This document shows, piece by piece, positions 2,402 to 37,006 of a DNA stretch of 41,563 bases. Origin of the DNA: Nodosilinea sp. LEGE 07298 (GTDB lineage: Bacteria > Cyanobacteriota > Cyanobacteriia > Phormidesmidales > Phormidesmidaceae); NCBI RefSeq assembly GCF_015207265.1, contig NZ_JADEXE010000020.1, forward strand, positions 1 to 41,563, written 5' to 3'. The position numbers and the translations under genes are program-made. The first letter of the stretch is position 1. Each line of letters starts with the position of its first letter. The notes under the pieces are model-generated. The model saw nothing but the letters and a program-made list of their open reading frames with translations. It was not told the DNA's origin and did no database searches.

Positions 2402-2465
2402 TGACGTAGCGCGATCGCCTGACACGGCGGCGGCTAGGTTATGTTTTCTCCACAAGAGGTTGACT

Positions 2466-3089
2466 ATGCGAATTCAATATCTGGGCGCTGTGGCGATCGC
2501 CTCCCTGCTAAGCCTGGGCGCTGTGGCCTGTGGCACCACTACCGTCAGTACCCCTGAGGCTGTCAGCCAAGAAGCGGCTGACCCTTGTGCCGCCGCCAAT
2601 CCCTGCGCCGCCGCTAATCCCTGCGCTGCTGCCAACCCCTGTGCTGCTGCCAACCCTTGCGCCGCCGCAAAAGCTGGGGCACAGCCCGAAGTTTACGCCT
2701 TTGAAGGAGTAGCCATTCGCGGGGCCGATCCAGTCGCCTACTTCACCGAGGGCAAAGCAGTTAAAGGCTCCGCCGACTACGAAACCACCTGGGGCGGTGC
2801 CACCTGGCGCTTTAGCAGTGCCGAGAACCTGGCAGCCTTTGAGGCCGACCCCGAAGCTTACGCGCCCCAGTACGGCGGCTACTGTGCCTGGGCGGTCAAG
2901 AGTGGCTACCTGGCCTCGGTCGACCCCGAGGCGTGGAAGATTGTCGACGGCAAGCTCTACCTCAATTACAGCGCTGGGGTGCAAAAGCAGTGGCAGGCCG
3001 ATATTGCGGGCAACATTGCCCAGGGCGACCAAAACTGGCCCGCTGCCCTCAGCAGCGACAAGTTTAGCGAGAGCGGCAAAAGCTGGTAG
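2466..3089 (+). CDS. Secreted/lipidated YHS-domain protein with five Cys hexapeptides
   Basis: A 207-residue exported protein. The N-terminus has a hydrophobic signal ending SLGAVACG, a weak lipobox (Ala rather than Leu at -3), so lipidation is possible but unsure. Residues 39-68 are five tandem hexapeptides, DPCAAA then four NPCAAA, each with one Cys. A YHS-type domain follows (about 77-190) with [13 protein letters not shown], a [11 protein letters not shown] segment, and [14 protein letters not shown] domains are often metal-linked; no enzymatic role is known for this secreted form. ATG 2466 is preferred over TTG 2460 because AAGAGG lies six bases upstream. A paralogue with fifteen hexapeptides lies at 7687-8526. 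Confidence 0.85.
   Translation: MRIQYLGAVAIASLLSLGAVACGTTTVSTPEAVSQEAADPCAAANPCAAANPCAAANPCAAANPCAAAKAGAQPEVYAFEGVAIRGADPVAYFTEGKAVKGSADYETTWGGATWRFSSAENLAAFEADPEAYAPQYGGYCAWAVKSGYLASVDPEAWKIVDGKLYLNYSAGVQKQWQADIAGNIAQGDQNWPAALSSDKFSESGKSW
2580..2669 (+). repeat. In-frame 18-bp tandem array, 5 units (PCAAA-type hexapeptide)
   Basis: Five consecutive 18-base units encode D/N-P-C-A-A-A. Codon choice varies between units (TGT/TGC, GCC/GCT), so the array is older or more diverged at DNA level than its fifteen-unit relative at 8134-8403. Confidence 0.9.
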
Positions 3090-7686: not shown

Positions 7687-8526
7687 CTACTGCGCCCAAG
7701 ACACCACGTTTTCGTAGAAGGTCTTCACGGTTAGCACACCAGGCCAATTGGCATCACCTTTAACGATGTTGCCGGGAATATCCTGTACCCACTGCTGCTG
7801 TACCTCGGCGCTGTAGTTCAGGTAGAGCTTGCCATCGACAATCGTCCACACACGGGGATCAACCGAAGCCAAATTGCCTTCGCTCATCGCTTTGGCGCAG
7901 TAGCCACCGTACTGAGGCGCATAGGCTTCCGGATTGGCCTCAAATAAGGCCCTATTTTCAGCACTGCTAAACCGCCATGTGGCTCCACTCCAGGTGAACG
8001 AGTAGGCCTCGTTACCAGGCACCGCTGCTCCCTCCGTAAAGTAAGCTACCGGGTCGGCCCCGCGAATAGCCAGGTTGCTAGCCGACTCGACATAAACCTC
8101 AGCGTGAGGTGGTTCGGTAGCTTGGACTACATCAGCCCCGGCGCAGGGATTGGCGCTAGCGCAAGGATTGGCACTGGCACAGGGATTAGCACTAGCACAG
8201 GGATTGGCACTAGCGCAGGGATTGGCACTGGCACAGGGATTGGCACTAGCACAGGGATTGGCACTGGCACAGGGATTCGCACTGGCACAGGGATTGGCAC
8301 TAGCACAGGGATTGGCACTAGCGCAGGGATTGGCACTAGCGCAGGGATTCGCACTAGCACAGGGATTGGCACTGGCACAAGGATTGGCACTGGCGCAGGG
8401 ATTTACCGTTCCAGTTGCTCCGGCACAAGGGGCCGCAAATACAGAACTCACAACATTAGGGAGAGCCATAGCGCCAACTGTCAGCGCGGACGAGGCCAAC
8501 AGGGCCGCCAGGTATTGAATCTTCAT
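7687..8526 (-). CDS. Secreted YHS-domain protein with fifteen Cys hexapeptides
   Basis: A 279-residue exported protein and paralogue of the gene at 2466-3089. A signal peptide (about 1-32, ending SSVFA) is followed by fourteen NPCASA units and one NPCAGA, so one Cys recurs every six residues over about 90 residues. The YHS domain follows with [25 protein letters not shown] and [11 protein letters not shown], then [13 protein letters not shown]. The array probably forms an extended periplasmic thiol or metal-binding segment; this is inference. AAGGA lies six bases before the ATG. Compared with its relative it has three times the repeats and Ser instead of Ala at position five. Confidence 0.87.
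8134..8403 (-). repeat. In-frame 18-bp tandem array, 15 units (NPCASA hexapeptide)
   Basis: Fifteen uninterrupted 18-base units encode NPCASA, the last in protein order being NPCAGA. Unit-to-unit changes are almost all synonymous third positions (TGC constant, GCA/GCG/GCT and CTA/CTG-type swaps on the plus strand), pointing to recent expansion under selection for the peptide. Length is likely to vary between strains. Confidence 0.95.
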
Positions 8527-22811: not shown

Positions 22812-23549
22812 TTGGCTACAGCGTCAAACTCTACGGTACGGTCTCCTCGCCAAGAGCTGCTGGCTGGGGCACGAGACATCATTCCCCTGGTGGTTGGGGC
22901 CATACCCTTCGGCATTATTTTTGGCACCCTGGCCCAGGGCAGCGGCCTATCTTTTGGGGCTACGCTGGGCATGTCCGCCTTTGTGTTTGCGGGGTCATCG
23001 CAGTTTATTGCCCTGGGGCTGCTGGCGGCGGGCAGCACCCTGCCCCTGATCGTGCTCACCACGGTGGTCGTCAACCTGCGCCACATGCTCTACGCCGCCA
23101 GCCTGCTGCCCTACGTGCAAGGGGACTCCCAACGGTGGAAGGCGATCATTGGCTTCTTTTTAACCGATGAAGCCTTTGCGATCGCCATTCGCCGCTACCT
23201 ACAGCCCGACCTCAGCCCCCACAAGCACTGGTACTACCTGGGCGCAGGCGGGGCCATGTACGGCAACTGGGTGCTCTGCACTTGGCTGGGGCTAACGGTG
23301 GGGCAGCTGATCCCCAATGCGGCGGCTTGGGGGCTCGATTTTGCTATGGTGGCCACATTCATCGGTATGATCGTGCCCTACGCGACGACAAGGCCGATGG
23401 TGGGGGCGATCGCCGTTGCCGGACTGGTGGCTGTTTTAGCCAATGGGCTGCCGCACAAATTGGGGTTGATGGTGGCCGCGATCGCGGGGGTCGCCGCCGG
23501 TTTCTGGCTCGAAACTCGGGTATTCAAGAGTGAGGAGGTGGGGAGATAA
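22812..23549 (+). CDS. azlC: AzlC-family branched-chain amino acid exporter, large subunit
   Basis: A 245-residue inner-membrane protein, large component of the two-subunit AzlCD exporter (BrnFE type) that removes excess branched-chain amino acids or analogues. Family segments are LVVGAIPFGIIFGTLAQGSGLS, FVFAGSSQFIALGLLAAG, VVNLRHMLYAASLLPY and FFLTDEAFAI. Several hydrophobic helices are evident. The start is TTG at 22812, with GGAG seven bases upstream and no in-frame ATG nearby. The partner azlD is not adjacent but lies at 32014. It ends seven bases from the convergent GspE-like gene. Confidence 0.9.
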   Translation: MATASNSTVRSPRQELLAGARDIIPLVVGAIPFGIIFGTLAQGSGLSFGATLGMSAFVFAGSSQFIALGLLAAGSTLPLIVLTTVVVNLRHMLYAASLLPYVQGDSQRWKAIIGFFLTDEAFAIAIRRYLQPDLSPHKHWYYLGAGGAMYGNWVLCTWLGLTVGQLIPNAAAWGLDFAMVATFIGMIVPYATTRPMVGAIAVAGLVAVLANGLPHKLGLMVAAIAGVAAGFWLETRVFKSEEVGR

Positions 23550-25746: not shown

Positions 25747-27237
25747 TCAGAGCAGCTGCAAAATCGATCGGGTCGAAATGCCCAGACCAATCACGGTGAT
25801 GCCCACAGCGCTGATCAGCGGTAGCCACTGAAACGCCTGCCAACGAGGCATGGGCACCTGCTTAAACACCCGTTTGGCCGACACCATCAGCAGACCCAAC
25901 CCTGCTAAAACGCTGGCCAGCCCCAGGCTAAACGCCACCACCAGCAGCAACCCCGAAATCGGATTGCCAAAGGCGATCGCCCCCAGCAGCAGCACCAGGG
26001 CCGCCGGGCAGGGCACCAGCCCCGCCGACAGACCCAGCAGCAGCAGACTGCGCCAGGTGGTAGTGCCATCGGTTACGGGCAAGTGGCTATGGGAGTGCCC
26101 GCCGTGGTGGTGGTGAGCAGAATTGTGGGTGTGGGAATGGTGATGATCGGAGTCGTGATCAGAGTGAGCGGAGGCATGGGCATGATGCCCGTGGGAATGG
26201 TGAGGGTGGTGGTGGCCGTGGGTCGAGTGGTTGTGGGCGTGAGATTTTTTGTGGGCGTGAGCGTGAGCTAGTTCACCGGGAGAGTGGGCGCTAGCATGGG
26301 CCGCTTCGCTAGGGACGTGAGTATGGGCGCTGTGATGGCTAGAGCGCTGCCGCTGCGATCGCTGGGCAACTAGGTTAGCGCCAATGCAGACAATCATGCC
26401 GCCTGAGATCAGGCCTAACCACGGATAAATTTGCTCGGGCAGCACATAGCGGGCGGCGGCCAGAGTAATCAACCCCAGGGCAAACACGCCGAGGGTGTGA
26501 GTCACGGTAGTCATCAGGGCCAAAAACAGGGCGTGGCGGGAGGTGGCCCGTTCACCCACCAAATAGGCCCCTACCAAAGTTTTGCCATGCCCCGGCGACA
26601 GCGAGTGCACCGCCCCCCACAAAAATGCGCCAATCAGCGTGATAAACCAGGCTCTACTGCCCAGGGCGGCTGCGTCTGGCGATGTCACGGTGAAGGTGGG
26701 GTCTTTAGGCGTGAAGACGTGGTTGATGACCTGCCCGTTTTGGGCAATGGTGGCCAGACAGCTCGCCTCGGGCGCATCGGCAGGGAAAAAGGTGTAGGCG
26801 ATCGCTAGCCCCGACGGTGGCTCGGCCCAGGAGTACAACAGCTGTAGTGTCGTGTGGCTACTCGGGGCAATCCTGGCGTTGGTAGAAACGCTGTCTACGG
26901 CGGGCAGGATCGTCAGCCGGGGCGATTGATTGCGGCTATCTTTGAGGGCGATCGCGGGCTCAAGCTGCTGCGTTAGCGCCTGCCGATGGCGCAGGAGTTC
27001 CGCCGTCGAGAGTCGTCCGCTGCCGTCGTCATCGGCAAAGGCCGTTAATCCGGTGGGGTAAGTCAGGGTAATGCGCGTTTCCGTCTCTGCCAGCCCAATT
27101 TCAGCGGTGGCCAAATCGCCCCAGTGGGCGGCGGCGGGCGGGGCGATCGCCAGCCCAATTACGATGCAGGTCACGGCGACCAGAAAACCTAAAACACTGT
27201 AGCGGCGTAAACAATAGCGGCGTAACTGCTGGGTCAT
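25747..27237 (-). CDS. NicO-family nickel/cobalt exporter with EF-hand loop and His-rich loop
   Basis: A 496-residue membrane transporter related to RcnA/NicO. A signal peptide (about 1-37, ending PPAAA) would leave His38 as mature N-terminus. The extracytoplasmic domain (38-195) has a perfect EF-hand loop DDDGSGRLSTAE (69-80). The transport core has HSLSPGHGK (211-219), then a cytoplasmic or periplasmic loop (301-385) packed with about 35 His, and GLVPCPAALVLLLGA (406-420). Ni2+, Co2+ or another soft cation is the probable substrate; calcium may regulate. Its ATG overlaps the TGA of the upstream TPR gene, so translation is probably coupled. Confidence 0.87.
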   Translation of the reverse strand: MTQQLRRYCLRRYSVLGFLVAVTCIVIGLAIAPPAAAHWGDLATAEIGLAETETRITLTYPTGLTAFADDDGSGRLSTAELLRHRQALTQQLEPAIALKDSRNQSPRLTILPAVDSVSTNARIAPSSHTTLQLLYSWAEPPSGLAIAYTFFPADAPEASCLATIAQNGQVINHVFTPKDPTFTVTSPDAAALGSRAWFITLIGAFLWGAVHSLSPGHGKTLVGAYLVGERATSRHALFLALMTTVTHTLGVFALGLITLAAARYVLPEQIYPWLGLISGGMIVCIGANLVAQRSQRQRSSHHSAHTHVPSEAAHASAHSPGELAHAHAHKKSHAHNHSTHGHHHPHHSHGHHAHASAHSDHDSDHHHSHTHNSAHHHHGGHSHSHLPVTDGTTTWRSLLLLGLSAGLVPCPAALVLLLGAIAFGNPISGLLLVVAFSLGLASVLAGLGLLMVSAKRVFKQVPMPRWQAFQWLPLISAVGITVIGLGISTRSILQLL

Positions 27238-28580
27238 GGTAAAAGCCTCTCATTCTGCCTGACGAGTCCTAACCGTTGCCGGGTTTGAGGGTTAAACGCA
27301 GGGTTAATTTCTGCCACCTGGCGAAAAAACTGTTCCGCCTGGGCGGAGTGGCCCAGGGCCAGCTCAATCTCGCCCGCTCGGTAGGCCATCCCGGCGCTGT
27401 GGATGCCCGAGTCTAGCGCCTCTCGCATCACCTGTTGTGCCGCCGATAGCTGACCTGCCTCCTGCAGCGCCCAGGCCAGTAAATGGAGGGTCTTGGCATC
27501 GCGGCGGTTGGTAGCTTCGGTTTCCATCAGCGTTACCGCCTCCGCTATGTCTGCCGGGTCACCCCGTTCCAGCAGCAGGTGGGCCAAATCGCGTCGATGC
27601 CCCAGGGCATTACTGTCGATGCTGCGGCGCAGCTCAGTTTCGGCCACAGTCCAGGCTGCGGTTTCTGATCGGCCCCGCAGGGCTTCAATGCGGGCCAGGC
27701 CGTGGAGCGCGATCGCCCCCCCGACGGCCCGGTAGTGGTGTTTGGCCGTGCGATAGTGGCCCTCAACCGTAGCCAGCTCGGCCATTTGAAGATGCGCTAG
27801 CGGATAGTCAGGGACGATTTGCAGCGCTTCGTGGTAAAGGGCTTGAGCGGTTTTGTCGTCGCCCCGCTGGGCGTAGAACCGGCCCAAAAACACGCGGGTT
27901 TGGGCCGAACCGGCAGTGTTAGCAGGTTCTTCGGCGGCGATCGCCGCCTTAAAATCCGCCAGGGCCAGCTCGTCGCGCCCCTGGGCCTCGTGGGTCAGCG
28001 CCCGCAACGTCAGGCTCCCCAAGGATGGATACTGCTCGGCGAGTGCGTTAGCTAGGTTGGCGGCATCGTCGAGCTGTCCCAGCGCCAGCTGAGAGGTAAT
28101 CACCAGCCCCAAGGCATCAGGGCTGCCAACGCTTTCAGCGAGACTAACAGCGGTCTCAAAGTCGTGCTGAGCCTCAGCGATCTTGGCCAGGGCCAGGGTC
28201 GCCCCAGAATTCTCAAAGGGCATCTTGGCTAGCGACTGCTGAGCCGCTTTTTCGGCCAGCAGGTACCAGCTGTCGTTGCGAGTGGCGCGAGCCATCTGAA
28301 TGTAGAGATTAGCCAGCGCCGCCTGATCGAGTCCATCGGCCGGGTTTTGCTGAATTCGACCTTGGTAGAACGAAATCGACTGCTCTAGAGTGTGCTGATT
28401 TTGGCTGGACACAGAACCCGAAAACGGGTAGTTGTAAAGGCTCTGGTGCCACAAGCCCGACCAATACTGCCGATCGGGTTGCGTCAAGGCGACTGCCCCT
28501 AGCGATAGCAAACCCACGGTTAGCAGCCGAACCGGATACCCTCGCCCCAAGGGAGACGTAATTGATCTGATAGTTATCAT
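27234..28580 (-). CDS. Membrane-anchored TPR-repeat protein
   Basis: A 448-residue protein with an N-terminal hydrophobic segment (about 18-33) acting as an anchor or uncleaved signal, then TPR-like helical repeats over nearly the whole remainder, including GSAQTRVFLGRFYAQRGDDKTA and IHSAGMAYRAGEIELALGHSAQAEQFF. It likely scaffolds envelope proteins; no enzymatic motif is visible. It lies between the DUF4331 gene (157 bases upstream, with a strong hairpin between) and the NicO gene, with which it overlaps by ATGA. My recollection is that DUF4331, TPR and NicO/HupE-like genes co-occur elsewhere, which would support a shared function; I could not check. Confidence 0.82.
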   Translation of the reverse strand: MITIRSITSPLGRGYPVRLLTVGLLSLGAVALTQPDRQYWSGLWHQSLYNYPFSGSVSSQNQHTLEQSISFYQGRIQQNPADGLDQAALANLYIQMARATRNDSWYLLAEKAAQQSLAKMPFENSGATLALAKIAEAQHDFETAVSLAESVGSPDALGLVITSQLALGQLDDAANLANALAEQYPSLGSLTLRALTHEAQGRDELALADFKAAIAAEEPANTAGSAQTRVFLGRFYAQRGDDKTAQALYHEALQIVPDYPLAHLQMAELATVEGHYRTAKHHYRAVGGAIALHGLARIEALRGRSETAAWTVAETELRRSIDSNALGHRRDLAHLLLERGDPADIAEAVTLMETEATNRRDAKTLHLLAWALQEAGQLSAAQQVMREALDSGIHSAGMAYRAGEIELALGHSAQAEQFFRQVAEINPAFNPQTRQRLGLVRQNERLLP

Positions 28581-28624
28581 TGCGATCGCATCCTCGCATC
28601 CTGTACTGACCAGACTTTGCTTGA

Positions 28625-28669
28625 GATTCGGGCGGCAGCCGCATAAGCGACAAGCACGCCGCCCGAATC
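28625..28669. terminator. Strong intercistronic hairpin between DUF4331 and TPR genes
   Basis: GATTCGGGCGGC (28625-28636) pairs perfectly over 12 bases with GCCGCCCGAATC (28658-28669), loop 21 bases. No T-run follows on the minus strand, so it may protect the DUF4331 transcript 3' end or act as a leaky attenuator rather than a full terminator. Confidence 0.5.
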
Positions 28670-28737
28670 CCAGGATTTGGCCCTTTTGCGCTTAGAGAAA
28701 TGGTCTGAAGCCGCTATGGGCCAGCGCTAGAGAAGCG

Positions 28738-29961
28738 CTAGTTGGCCGGTGCCAGGTAGGGAAACGACGGCACTAGGGGATCATGACCCTGAGCCGGGTT
28801 ACCGGGCGTTCCCACATAGGACACGTTGTCGGTGGTAATGCCACCATTGGTGAGCACAGAGAGCGTAATGTCGACAACGTCATCCATCAGCAGGCGTCCA
28901 GCAATGGGGCTGCCTTTAGCGTTCAGGGCGTTGGCATAACCGCTAGGAACGGTCGTGTCAATTCGCATGACATCGGGCAAAAACGCCTGGAGCAGAGCAT
29001 CGGCCCTGGCCTCGTTATTGCCGATCGCCAGCAGAGTTTGTTTGGCCTCGCCGATGATGGGGGCCGCCGCGCTGGCCGCCGGTTCTCGCCCCGCCAGGGC
29101 CGCCGCCTCAAAGGCGGGGTCAACGCTGTTGAGGGTGTTCAAGAAATCGTTGGTGACAATCAAGCCCTCATTCACGGCTGGACGGGCCAGTCGCTCGACC
29201 TGGTTAAGTTTCTGGCTCCCCGGCAGCGACACCGTCATCCACACATCAAAGGTGGTGGCGTCTTCTGAGCCCTGCAATAGCCCAATGGGCAGCTGAACGG
29301 CGATCGCATTGACGTTGTAGCCCTGGGCAAAGTCCACCGCTTGATCGGGTTCACGAAACCCAACCGCAGGCCCTTTACCCAAAGCCCCTGCCCGCACCCG
29401 AAAGAACTGCTCCACATCAAAGAAGAATGGATCTTCGCGCAGTCCCGCAAAAACTTGAACGGTGGAGCCGTCGACGCTACCCGTATTCAAGATCGGAGTC
29501 TCTCTGAGCGCGGTGGTTTGGCCTTCAATTACGTCACTGCTGCCGTCTTTGGTCACGGTGAGGGTATAGTCTTGGCGGTTATCGCTGTCCGGCGGGCCAA
29601 ACTCAAACTCCAAAACAACATCCGATATCCCGTCCGGTGTAGCATCGTTGTTGGTAACGCGAGAAATGTTGAACTTGTACGCCGCTCGGGTGCTGAAATA
29701 ATACTGTTGCCCCGCTAGAGAACGAGGATTCGTATTCATAACTAAAACTAGATTGTTCGACGAAGCACTGGGGTTTTGATCCACTTCTCGAAACACGTAC
29801 AAATCGGTCAGGTTCAGGTTGCGCCCTTTAATTTCTGACTCACCGTCGTCGTGGTCAGACGCGTTGACAAACAAAGCACCTGCGCCCAGGGTGGCCGCTA
29901 GCCCCAGCCCTAATCCCGTGGCATAGAGGGCTTTTTTGAACGTTTGATTGATAGTCTTCAT
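28738..29961 (-). CDS. Secreted DUF4331-family protein with predicted ATCUN N-terminus
   Basis: A 407-residue exported protein of the DUF4331 family, function unknown. The signal peptide (1-34, hydrophobic 14-31, VNA before the cut) would expose Ser35-Asp36-His37 as the mature N-terminus, an ATCUN motif that binds Cu(II) or Ni(II). The acidic stretch SDHDDGESE and GRNLNLTDLYVFRE are family hallmarks; the rest is probably beta-rich (YKFNISRVTNND, VVLEFEFGPPDSDNRQDY, and a C-terminal PSFPYLAPAN). Upstream is the DUF4394 gene, downstream the TPR and NicO genes, all leftward. A structural or metal-binding envelope role is inferred. Confidence 0.88.
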   Translation of the reverse strand: MKTINQTFKKALYATGLGLGLAATLGAGALFVNASDHDDGESEIKGRNLNLTDLYVFREVDQNPSASSNNLVLVMNTNPRSLAGQQYYFSTRAAYKFNISRVTNNDATPDGISDVVLEFEFGPPDSDNRQDYTLTVTKDGSSDVIEGQTTALRETPILNTGSVDGSTVQVFAGLREDPFFFDVEQFFRVRAGALGKGPAVGFREPDQAVDFAQGYNVNAIAVQLPIGLLQGSEDATTFDVWMTVSLPGSQKLNQVERLARPAVNEGLIVTNDFLNTLNSVDPAFEAAALAGREPAASAAAPIIGEAKQTLLAIGNNEARADALLQAFLPDVMRIDTTVPSGYANALNAKGSPIAGRLLMDDVVDITLSVLTNGGITTDNVSYVGTPGNPAQGHDPLVPSFPYLAPAN

Positions 29962-30096
29962 GGTAGGTATAGCCCTTGATTGTTGGTAGAAAATACGGAA
30001 CTTCAGCCCTGGTATCGCAGCGGCTTCAGCAGCTTAGATTCCAAGGCTTGTTAAGCCAATAAAGAGATAGATAAAAGACGTGGTTTGGGCGATCGC

Positions 30097-31875
30097 CTAG
30101 GTAATCCCGGCAATCTCAGGGGTGAGCGTTACGACCAGGTCGTTAAAGTCAAAATCCCCGGCATCTTCAAAGAGCCATGTGTTCCCCTCGCGCTTAATGC
30201 GCGTTTGGCCTAGGGCAGCATCGCCGACTGTCGCGAGGTTTTGCAAACTGCCGTCGATCAACAATGCCGGTGCATAGTAGGTGCCGCCGAGGAGGCTCAC
30301 AGTCACATCGATACTTTGGTTGTTACCAACCATTAAGGTGATGTCGTCAATCAAATTGGCGGCGGCAGCGGCCTCATAGCCGCTATCTCCCGGCAGCAGG
30401 CCATCTACCTGTCCCAGCGCATCGGTTTCATAAAAAGACAGCACGTTGTCAAAAACGGCTTCCCGCGAGAGCCGTCGGATCACGTTGACCGCCACGTTGC
30501 CGTCAAAGCCAGTCAGGTCAAACAGTTCGGGCAAGGGATCAACCTCCGCCATCGGGGGCGCAGCCGTCAATCCCTGGAACACAATCTCGCTGCCGTCTGC
30601 GATCGCACCCAGACTGGTCGCCACTCCAGACTCCAGGTTGAGGCTGTACAACATTGCGTTAGACACCGCAAACGCCGTGTTGTCGCCTGCCGAGGTCGAC
30701 ACAATCTCGAACCCGCCCAGGGTATCCAGGTCAAACCCCAGCATTCCCACCGTCTGCAAGGTGCCATCGTTGGGCGGGCTTTGCAGCAGCAAGCTATCGA
30801 GGGCGCTGTCGAGGTCATACAGCTGGGTCGATGTAGTGCCCGCAAAGGAGTTGGTGTAGGCCGCCCCAGTCACGCTGGGATTTACGCCCGCATTGACATC
30901 ATCACCAGAGAAGGCGAGGTCTCCATCGACAATCACCGCACCCGTATCCACATTGATGCGAAAGTCCTGGTCATTCTCTCCCACCAGGCGCAGTCGATCC
31001 GCCACCGGGTTGAAGTCAAACCCTGATACAGCACCGCCCTCAAAGGGCTGAGACAGCGTGCTCACCAGGGTTGCCTCAGCGCTCTCCTCACCGAGGGCAA
31101 TGGTGTATATCTGGTTGGTTGTGGTCAGGCCATAGATCAAGCCGTTAGCCGGACGCACGTCAATACCGAGCAGCGTGCCCTCGACTCCAGAAACCGACAG
31201 TGTTTTGGTTTGGGCCAAATTACTGGTGGAAAACGCCACGATCTGATTGGCGTCGGTCAGACCCAGCAGATCGAAGTCCATTGGCGGCGCAACAGGCTGG
31301 ATGGTTTGAGCCCCCGTCAGGGCGATCGTGTAGGTTCCGCCCGATGCGCTCTCACCAGCAAACCCGACTAGCGGCGAACCGCCACCCGGTCCGGTAGGCA
31401 GCAAAACGCCATCAAAAGAGCTGTCGGGAAAGATCTCCCCACCCGTGCTGATCGAGTCATAGTCAAAACCAGAAATAGCCAGGTAATAAATGCCTGGCTC
31501 AAGCAGCCCCGCCATCGAGGGCAGGGTGGCCTGGGCTGAGCCAAACAAATCATCATTGCCATAGACACCGTTGCCAGCAGCATCAAACAAAAAGAGCTGC
31601 GGGTCTTGCAGCAGACTGGTAGGAATACCCAGCGTATTGTCGATGGGCAGGCCGAGCAGCGTGGCTGGATTCAGCGTGGTCGCTGAAAACGGCTGCTCGC
31701 CAGAAATAAACAGTTGAAAGAGATCAGCATCTCCAGCGAGGGTTCCAGAGATGGCTGTTAACGGCTGTGCTAAGTCAGCGACAATGGGGATGGCCCCATC
31801 GAGCCGCTCTCCAGTGTCATCAACTTCGACAAAGGAAAAGTCAGAAGCGGGGGTATTGGAATCGGAGGGGGGCAT
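30097..31875 (-). CDS. DUF4394 / DUF4114 extracellular repeat protein
   Basis: A 592-residue protein with three parts: an N-terminal PPC-like beta domain (about 35-190, SGTLAGDADLFQLF, PGIYYLAISGFDYD), a DUF4394 beta-propeller-like domain (about 200-440, GIDVRPANGLIYGLTT, GFDFNPVADRLRLVGENDQDFRIN) and a C-terminal DUF4114 domain ending FEDAGDFDFNDLVV, a likely Ca-binding site. There is no N-terminal signal, as in proteins exported by type I systems with a C-terminal signal. AGGAG lies eight bases before ATG 31875; the TTG at 31908 is rejected. It lies 135 bases before the DUF4331 gene and could share its transcript. Confidence 0.85.
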   Translation of the reverse strand: MPPSDSNTPASDFSFVEVDDTGERLDGAIPIVADLAQPLTAISGTLAGDADLFQLFISGEQPFSATTLNPATLLGLPIDNTLGIPTSLLQDPQLFLFDAAGNGVYGNDDLFGSAQATLPSMAGLLEPGIYYLAISGFDYDSISTGGEIFPDSSFDGVLLPTGPGGGSPLVGFAGESASGGTYTIALTGAQTIQPVAPPMDFDLLGLTDANQIVAFSTSNLAQTKTLSVSGVEGTLLGIDVRPANGLIYGLTTTNQIYTIALGEESAEATLVSTLSQPFEGGAVSGFDFNPVADRLRLVGENDQDFRINVDTGAVIVDGDLAFSGDDVNAGVNPSVTGAAYTNSFAGTTSTQLYDLDSALDSLLLQSPPNDGTLQTVGMLGFDLDTLGGFEIVSTSAGDNTAFAVSNAMLYSLNLESGVATSLGAIADGSEIVFQGLTAAPPMAEVDPLPELFDLTGFDGNVAVNVIRRLSREAVFDNVLSFYETDALGQVDGLLPGDSGYEAAAAANLIDDITLMVGNNQSIDVTVSLLGGTYYAPALLIDGSLQNLATVGDAALGQTRIKREGNTWLFEDAGDFDFNDLVVTLTPEIAGIT

Positions 31876-32013
31876 GTTAAAAACTCCTATGCTTGGTGCT
31901 TGAATCAAGCAACCAGCTGTTTAAGGTTTTCATGCCTATTACGCCTGAGTTTGTGAAGCAGATTTAAATCAGGACAGCTTTATCAAAGCTTTACATCGAT
32001 TGGGGAACTGGTT

Positions 32014-32334
32014 ATGAATGACTGGCTTTTGGTAGCCTGTATGGCCCTGGTGACGTTTTCAATTCGCTACGTGCTGCTGGCCTTCAGCGGTCGCATTCAG
32101 CTATCGCCGACCCTGGTGCGGGCCTTGGGCTACGTGCCCCCAGTGGTACTGACCGCGATCGTAGTGCCTGCGGTCGTGCTGCCCGATGGCGAAACCCTAT
32201 GGCTGGGGTGGCAAAATGCGCGGCTGGTGGGGGCGATCGCCTGCGTCATCCTCGCCCTTTGGCGCAAGAACCTGCTGCTCACCATCGCGGGTGGCATGGT
32301 CGTATTTTGGGGCTGGGGCTGGCTGGTTAGCTAA
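32014..32334 (+). CDS. azlD: AzlD-family branched-chain amino acid exporter, small subunit
   Basis: A 106-residue protein with four hydrophobic helices, small partner of AzlC. Family features are FSIRYVLLAFSGR near the N-terminus and ALGYVPPVVLTAIVVPAVV (about 40-58). In most genomes azlC and azlD are adjacent; here azlC is 8.5 kb away on the same strand. It is divergent from the DUF4394 gene, 138 bases apart. No second AzlC is in the window, so the two probably still form one transporter. Confidence 0.88.
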   Translation: MNDWLLVACMALVTFSIRYVLLAFSGRIQLSPTLVRALGYVPPVVLTAIVVPAVVLPDGETLWLGWQNARLVGAIACVILALWRKNLLLTIAGGMVVFWGWGWLVS

Positions 32335-36541: not shown

Positions 36542-37006
36542 ATGAAACGGTTGCTTGTTGCTTTGGTCATGTGTTTGGCTCTGGTGGGGTTTCCGGCCCA
36601 GGCAAGCGCACACCAGGTTGAAACGTTTTACACTCTCGACAATCAGCTTGAGTTTCAGTCGAGGTTTAGTTCTGGAGAGCCGTTTGTGGGCGCAACGGTC
36701 AGTATTTACGCCCCCAACAGCTCCGACGAGCCCTGGATGACCACCACCACCGACAGTGAGGGGCGATTTGCCTTTGTGCCCGACGAGTCGATACCGGGCG
36801 ACTGGGAAGTGGCGATCGAAGATGACACCCGCAGCCACGCCGACTACTGGACCGTGCCCGTGGGCGACAAGGGCATTATCTACGACGGCATTAGCCTCGA
36901 CTCGACCGAAGATGTACACTACCGCGCTGCCGCTGCCTTCATGCCGCTGATGATTTCTATCGGTGGAGCGCTAGCCTGGCTAGGGTTTACCCGTCGCCGT
37001 CGCTAA
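36542..37006 (+). CDS. Secreted NikL/Ig-like domain protein with C-terminal membrane anchor
   Basis: A 154-residue protein. The signal peptide (1-23, ending ASA) leaves His24 as the predicted mature N-terminus. The domain (24-130) has DNQLEFQSRFSSGEPFVGATVSIYAP and TDSEGRFAFVPDESIPGDWEVAIED, a carboxypeptidase-regulatory-like beta fold also seen in NikL, an extracytoplasmic component of nickel ECF transporters. A C-terminal helix (about 132-149) and RRRR anchor it. A role in nickel or other metal handling is inferred from this similarity only. It is followed by its own terminator. Confidence 0.6.
   Translation: MKRLLVALVMCLALVGFPAQASAHQVETFYTLDNQLEFQSRFSSGEPFVGATVSIYAPNSSDEPWMTTTTDSEGRFAFVPDESIPGDWEVAIEDDTRSHADYWTVPVGDKGIIYDGISLDSTEDVHYRAAAAFMPLMISIGGALAWLGFTRRRR

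Follow-up and report, generated by a model that had tools for sequence, protein, structure and literature searches.

The question raised by this locus is what function unites four adjacent genes on the minus strand of a 41,563-nucleotide stretch of Nodosilinea sp. LEGE 07298 (assembly GCF_015207265.1, contig NZ_JADEXE010000020.1, positions 1 to 41,563; hereafter the window). The quartet encodes a DUF4394 protein, a DUF4331 protein, a tetratricopeptide repeat (TPR) protein, and a NicO-family permease, and spans positions 31875–25747. A preliminary description based on the letters alone had proposed a candidate envelope metal-handling system. Comparison with other genomes and structure prediction lead us to favor, with slightly better than even confidence, a local form of a conserved envelope module that would capture and hand over a transition metal. 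Ni(II) is the likeliest metal, and Cu(II) or Co(II) is possible.

All four genes lie on the same strand, as first described, and each is supported by Pfam. DUF4394 (30097..31875, within an open reading frame [ORF] at 30097–31908 with its ATG at 31875) matches PF14339 (E = 1.2e-75), and DUF4331 (28738..29961) matches PF14224 (E = 8.2e-63; 213.5 bits, Pfam cut-off 27). The TPR gene (27234..28580) matches several TPR models (best E = 1.5e-12), and the permease gene (25747..27237) matches PF03824 (E = 3.5e-15; 56.5 bits, cut-off 27.7). Gaps of 135 nt (DUF4394-DUF4331) and 157 nt (DUF4331-TPR) are followed by a 4-nt ATGA overlap of the TPR stop and the NicO start (27234..27237), which the preliminary description had also reported. 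Co-transcription of the four genes is plausible from this spacing. Predicted sigma70-type promoters (0 found, 2.4 in shuffles) and terminators (8 found, 6.9 in shuffles) within the block are at chance level. The genome (7.25 Mb in 617 contigs) has a single DUF4331 match and a single NicO match, both in this block. Because these lone matches lie side by side, their adjacency is unlikely to be accidental; the chance of both falling within 6 kb is about 0.2% (12 kb of 7254 kb).

The same arrangement recurs far beyond this genome. The comparison covered 42 cyanobacterial loci and 80 cross-phylum loci, the latter being the best 80 of 520 confirmed and including many close relatives, such that the counts are not independent. 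By record titles, the cross-phylum loci belong to Proteobacteria, Planctomycetes, Acidobacteria, Verrucomicrobia, Nitrospira, Corallococcus, and Melainabacteria, among others. Neighbors were read with hidden Markov models (HMMs) built from the neighboring proteins, and gene order was counted in loci with at least 3.8 kb downstream, which left out 4 of the 42 cyanobacterial and 15 of the 80 other loci. The order DUF4331, TPR, and permease is found in 33 of 38 cyanobacterial loci (window included) and in 47 of 65 cross-phylum loci, and a permease in any arrangement lies downstream of DUF4331 in 49 of these 65. The neighborhood search across phyla, which the preliminary description had proposed together with a lack of conserved linkage as contrary evidence, thus recovered the linkage. 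The TPR-permease pair lies upstream of DUF4331 instead in two Corallococcus loci (L135 and L141) and one cyanobacterial locus (L047), and on the opposite strand in L087. In six of the 65 cross-phylum loci, mostly from Planctomycetes, the place of TPR is taken by DUF4198, a nickel binder according to a published study (PMC12537917), which supports a role in metal handling. Three Streptomyces plasmids carry DUF4331 and TPR with an annotated "nickel transporter," and a named Nostoc plasmid has the same kind of operon. Among 13 annotated plasmid regions with DUF4331, a transporter of the nickel permease kind adjoins in six. Judged from these gene orders, the block is a local version of a widely shared bacterial module. 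Two further arrangements were also observed. On a Streptomyces anulatus plasmid, TPR and NicO are flanked on each side by a DUF4331 gene (L225:4845-10816), and in a cyanobacterium a cation diffusion facilitator (CDF) efflux gene lies 2 bases downstream of a divergent DUF4331 gene (L048:9020-11112).

The distribution of DUF4331 is patchy: of the genomes sampled, 19 of 292 in the phylum and 22 of 63 in the family encode it. Among these 63, the permease N-terminal domain (N-domain) and DUF4331 are both present in 21 and both absent in 39, whereas DUF4331 occurs alone in one (G350) and the N-domain alone in two (G347 and G301, the latter a weak partial match). This association is strong (Fisher p = 2e-13, kinship not corrected), and in one genome (G215) the two genes are located on different contigs. 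Within the genus, where occurrence is patchy, presence and absence match exactly (10 both, 16 neither, n = 26). The patchiness of the family and the differing position of the block among relatives would fit chance neighbors without joint function. However, this explanation is hardly credible, as it is already contradicted by the same order in several phyla and by the matched co-occurrence.

The two remaining members differ in how widely they belong to this arrangement. DUF4394 adjoins DUF4331 solely in the genus of the window and a few relatives, and by this distribution it is a lineage-specific addition; its proposed membership in the block holds there and not in other lineages. It had also been called a Ca-type extracellular repeat protein, a label that does not fit a protein with a single PF14339 domain and a DVUA0089-family match below cut-off. 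A simple scan found no hydrophobic segment in DUF4394, and the name is absent from papers among the matches listed in a literature search. A second DUF4394, in two pieces, is present elsewhere in this genome (G000:C71:13765-14402). For the TPR protein, the description as a membrane protein has a single short hydrophobic N-terminal stretch in its favor (LLTVGLLSLGAVALT), and no 19-residue segment is over the threshold. An adaptor function is suggested for TPR, and this role, like any role of DUF4394, is putative.

The N-terminus of DUF4331 provides the first indication of what the module may bind. The window protein has a hydrophobic N-terminal stretch (residues 14–32) and only two histidines (37 and 393). 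Cleavage at a predicted A-x-A-like site would expose Ser35-Asp36-His37 (codons at 29851..29859, minus strand) as the mature N-terminus. Such a Ser/Ala-[Ser/Asp/His]-His start is found at the predicted mature N-terminus in 122 of 126 DUF4331 ORFs; the other four, which lack an N-terminus and fall outside the motif count, are C-terminal pieces of split genes (L044, L046, and L047). In each of these three loci, two ORFs share the DUF4331 sequence between them, the second half having a lipoprotein-like start. Where upstream sequence is available (119 ORFs), cleavage at a small-x-small signal-peptidase site would make the conserved His the third residue in 116 cases (94 with a strict A-x-A rule), compared with at most 80 (strict 41) for other offsets. 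One of the three misses (L079) is an unexported form. All 13 DUF4331 proteins that lack a signal-peptide-like start (L049, L079, L080, L162–L165, and L217–L222) begin with M-[S/A]-X-H, namely M-S-H-H, M-S-N-H, M-S-D-H, or M-A-D-H; among these, L163 was read from a V-type start codon, L079 and L219 from an internal Met, and the unannotated L162, L165, and L222 manually. Removal of Met before Ser or Ala would leave a Ser- or Ala-first N-terminus. Because this would give X-X-His in the unexported forms as well, His3 tracks the finished N-terminus rather than the export route. A free N-terminus with His at position 3 and no Pro at position 2 is the amino-terminal Cu(II)- and Ni(II)-binding (ATCUN) motif, and the X-X-His start of DUF4331 is predicted to have the pattern of such a site.

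In an alignment of 73 DUF4331 proteins (of 115 eligible, i.e., with the motif found), His3 of the predicted mature chain is the sole invariant His. Ser1, Asp19, Asp327, and other residues are also invariant; the invariance of Ser1 and His3 is partly due to selection of the sequences, and that of Asp19 and Asp327 is not. Given this second set of residues, Ser-X-His may instead belong, with Asp19 or Asp327, to a folded metal or active site, or be a docking signal, and DUF4331 would then be an enzyme or a receptor. We regard this as unlikely, as the motif stays at the extreme N-terminus in exported and unexported forms alike and the tail is poorly placed in the structure model. The predicted local distance difference test (pLDDT) score is about 51 over residues 1–10, compared with 89.6 overall (predicted template modeling score 0.91), which is as a free tail would appear. 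A sequence search of PDB with DUF4331 gave nothing useful, and the model had no match among PDB structures at E = 0.001 or better. Antibody-like rows (Z up to 6.3) were set aside as evidence of neither a known nor a new fold. A literature search by DUF4331 and PF14224 returned no paper naming either, whereas papers on DUF4198, the positive control, were retrieved.

The permease provides a second N-terminal site. An extracytoplasmic domain of about 155 residues precedes the NicO membrane half, behind a signal-peptide-like stretch ending in A-A-A, such that His38 is predicted by the small-x-small rule to become the first residue (His1) of the mature domain (26653..27126, minus strand). A PDB sequence search with this N-domain found nothing useful and no solved relative. 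Its AlphaFold2 model (mean pLDDT 84) has as its best PDB match 9gce, the Cu-bound domain of the anglerase Ang-1 (Foldseek E = 2.3e-6). The two superpose with Z = 10.5 and a root-mean-square deviation of 3.4 over 131 residues, residue 1 upon residue 1, and the next unrelated row has Z = 5.6. Of 91 permease ORFs, a script identified His1 after a signal-peptide-like stretch in 82, and visual inspection added seven. Residues 69–80 (26998..27033, minus strand; residues 32–43 of the mature domain) form the EF-hand loop reported earlier, reading D-x-D-x-S-G-x-L-x-x-x-E. Its key columns are nearly invariant (Asp32 53/54, Asp/Asn34 54/54, and Glu43 53/54) in an alignment of 54 of the 80 eligible N-domains. 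Eligibility required His1, and thus its invariance is partly by selection, whereas Asp32 and Glu43 were not selected. It is possible that this loop makes the anglerase-like domain a calcium-gated catcher. The terms "EF-hand" and "calcium" are absent from the main text of the anglerase paper (PMC12537917).

According to that paper (Franco Cairo et al., 2025; PMC12537917), Ang-1 coordinates Cu through its N-terminal His plus an Asn, with a reported Kd of 73.6 nM, and binds Ni with a Kd of 220 nM. It precedes a HupE/UreJ-2 permease that it is proposed to feed, and its frequent neighbors include DUF4198 and proteins of unknown function. The window permease resembles the anglerases Ang-1 and Ang-2 in its signal peptide, predicted His1, 9gce fold, and following nickel-class permease. 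It differs in having NicO rather than HupE/UreJ-2 as the membrane half, and the accessible text of PMC12537917 makes no mention of its DUF4331 and TPR partners. Among relatives with the same operon, N-domains 33–39% identical to that of the window are followed by HupE_UreJ_2 (PF13795) in L060 and L046, and the NicO membrane half is retained in L033, L037, and L041. Because related N-domains precede either type, the N-domain is, on sequence comparison, the constant part while the membrane half is exchanged. The window permease lacks PF13795 and falls outside the published Ang-HupE/UreJ-2 definition, yet judged from the model it should work like one. The fusion of an anglerase-type domain to NicO would be new here. 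DUF4198 proteins, the exported metal binders that fill the TPR place in some DUF4331 operons, have no counterpart in the block of the window.

Whether the metal would move in or out is less clear. The preliminary description had named the permease a NicO exporter. The NicO assignment stands (PF03824 and PF13386 being the only Pfam matches), and efflux is a possible direction: the RcnA-type Ni/Co efflux model NF007454 scores 95.3 bits, under its curated cut-off of 195. The earlier estimate of about 35 His in the loop of residues 301–385 (26083..26337, minus strand) was close, with 36 counted. Like RcnA/NicO efflux proteins, the window permease has PF03824 over cut-off and a His-rich loop; unlike RcnA, it has an extra anglerase-like domain and different partners. 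In a metal export or detoxification system, NicO would pump Ni/Co out while the anglerase domain and DUF4331 bind the metal outside and block its return. Consistent with this possibility, no named model matches the membrane half better than the RcnA-type one (125 bits in the Streptomyces form), the 36 His are concentrated within one loop, and a CDF exporter follows DUF4331 in L048. However, both RcnA-type scores are far under the cut-off, and the His-rich loop does not decide the direction because UreH-type importers carry one too, according to PMC4284471. Moreover, HupE_UreJ_2, HupE, and NicT fill equivalent places, and the HupE and NicT families are named as nickel importers. In two rhizobial plasmids, unexported DUF4331 adjoins HupE (PF04955, E = 2.4e-48) and NicT (458 bits, cut-off 450); the window NicO belongs to another branch than NicT/HoxN (NiCoT) and HupE, one with a large N-domain. 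Given these equivalents, import is modestly favored over export, which keeps a good chance since the window NicO does resemble the efflux model, if below cut-off. As an explanation of the whole block, export and detoxification is a minority reading that still deserves attention.

Under the favored reading of metal capture and hand-over, DUF4331 would be exported, and removal of its signal peptide would free the Ser-Asp-His N-terminus. As an ATCUN motif, this N-terminus could bind Cu(II) or Ni(II), such that DUF4331 would act as a soluble catcher or buffer. The anglerase-type domain of the permease would take over the metal through His1 at the mouth of the NicO channel, and the TPR protein, as an adaptor, may dock DUF4331 to the permease. 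The route would thus run from DUF4331 to the anglerase domain and into the NicO membrane half. With its X-X-His N-terminus and an anglerase-like domain on the adjacent permease, DUF4331 is a likelier candidate for a metal role than it was when first proposed. The preliminary interpretation, then, is upheld in the linkage of DUF4331, TPR, and permease and strengthened for DUF4331; efflux is the less favored direction, and the linkage of DUF4394 is confined to the genus and a few relatives.

Regulatory genes beside the operon in other lineages bear on a different explanation. Sigma genes were counted only with a same-strand anti-sigma match within 400 bases, as the sigma cluster consists partly of ORFs antisense to DUF4331. 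By this rule, an extracytoplasmic function (ECF) sigma/anti-sigma pair lies near 12 of the 42 cyanobacterial loci, all of the ChrR-cupin type, and near 42 of the 80 cross-phylum loci (28 RskA type, 12 ChrR type, and 2 both). Types were assigned with purpose-built HMMs, with which Pfam agreed in seven representatives (cupin in L035, L064, L077, and L084; RskA_C in L139, L093, and L151), although the L035 anti-sigma is under the ChrR model cut-off (53 vs. 124.5 bits). A two-block motif, ATCC-N15-18-CGTA, occurs upstream of DUF4331 in 63 of 122 loci, compared with a mean of 3.65 and a maximum of 9 in 100 shuffled sets. A spacing of 16 accounts for 55 cases, and every other spacing from 8 to 29 for at most 9. 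In cyanobacteria the first block is AGATCCA, in many proteobacteria it is G[AC]ATCC, and CGTAT follows. It was discovered and counted in the same loci, and thus the count is descriptive, and the shuffles preserved base composition only; counting true sites as well, it occurs 0.056 times per kb and strand across the whole set of loci. In other lineages, control of the module probably lies with an ECF sigma factor paired with an anti-sigma of the ChrR or RskA type. In the window, neither a sigma/anti-sigma pair nor a promoter-like motif is present at the block; two forms of the motif, allowing two mismatches, gave 2 and 1 matches outside the block, below or at chance. Across this genome the motif is not in excess: one form has a single exact match (4 in the control), and the other, allowing one mismatch, has 14 sites (17 in the control pattern).

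These pairs are reminiscent of the RpoE-ChrR (ECF11-like) stress systems, in which an ECF sigma factor is joined by a cupin anti-sigma. In phototrophs, ChrR pairs are reported to answer singlet oxygen. The block may therefore be an envelope oxidative or photo-stress module, in which the ECF sigma with its ChrR or RskA partner answers reactive oxygen while DUF4331 and the permease remove or rearrange redox-active copper or have an unknown protective activity. The frequency of the sigma pairs and of the upstream motif, and the cupin and RskA domains confirmed in representatives, are in line with this view. However, it seems rather improbable, as the genus of the window retains the block without pair or motif, many lineages use an RskA-type partner, and the signal may differ between two anti-sigma types with differing partners. 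A literature search combining HupE with ECF and ChrR returned nothing to the point. Another part found in other lineages is an acidic lipoprotein of about 70–100 residues between DUF4331 and the next gene, present in 58 of the 80 cross-phylum and none of the 42 cyanobacterial loci by an HMM built from 42 members. These proteins (L093–L160) carry D-x-x-EP-like motifs, and one that was scanned against Pfam and NCBIfam had no match.

Several observations weigh against metal capture and hand-over as the function of the block. The anti-sigma types, known from the singlet-oxygen response, point to stress rather than metal. Downstream permeases are missing in 16 of the 65 cross-phylum loci (in three of which one lies elsewhere nearby), and no nickel permease-like transporter lies alongside DUF4331 in seven of the 13 annotated plasmid regions. 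In the structure search, the zinc proteins ZrgA (Z = 10.1) and PA4063 (Z = 9.9) tie with 9gce, leaving Zn a possible metal, and the conserved EF-hand loop could mean Ca. Asp replaces His1 in an otherwise complete block (L073, in G312), and L124 is without a clear His1. Finally, the N-terminal tail of DUF4331 is poorly placed, so no metal site is visible in its model, and metal binding by DUF4331 and the permease is predicted from sequence.

Other features of the window are less directly connected. The block looks inserted between azlC (22812–23549, plus strand) and azlD (32014–32334, plus strand), which are separated here by the block plus a PilB/GspE-like gene. Of 15 loci examined in the genus, 11 have the two genes side by side, and the same split recurs in L069 (G315) and L073; in L178 (G311), a PilB-like gene lies beside azlC. 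Two exported-looking YHS-domain proteins (2460–3089, plus strand; 7687–8526, minus strand) have runs of N-P-C-A-x-A repeats, and these Cys-rich repeats could bind metal. A small protein (36542–37006, plus strand) has a signal-peptide-like start and a predicted N-terminal His (A-S-A/H-Q-V); its similarities to CarboxypepD_reg and DUF4198 are weak and below cut-offs.

A broader proposal may be drawn more tentatively, with somewhat less than even confidence: DUF4331 may be a metal carrier defined by its N-terminus and, with the anglerase permease and partners, form an undescribed stress-controlled Ni/Cu relay. The X-X-His start would be made by signal peptidase in exported forms or by Met removal in cytosolic ones. 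The partner would be a TPR adaptor or DUF4198, to which many phyla would add the acidic lipoprotein and a dedicated ECF sigma/anti-sigma pair. From one N-terminal site the metal would pass to the other and then into the membrane half, which is exchangeable between NicO and HupE_UreJ_2. Parts of the permease are related to known metal proteins, whereas the literature searched appears to contain no description of the operon, of the X-X-His carrier, or of the fusion to NicO. DUF4331 is a family without assigned function, and its operon context, X-X-His start, and anglerase-like partner permease allow an inexpensive direct test. If the proposal is true, the recently named anglerases would have a soluble partner, with a regulator as well in other lineages, and the anglerase domain would not be bound to HupE/UreJ-2. 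Moreover, the start of the finished chain would provide a route to finding metal carriers.

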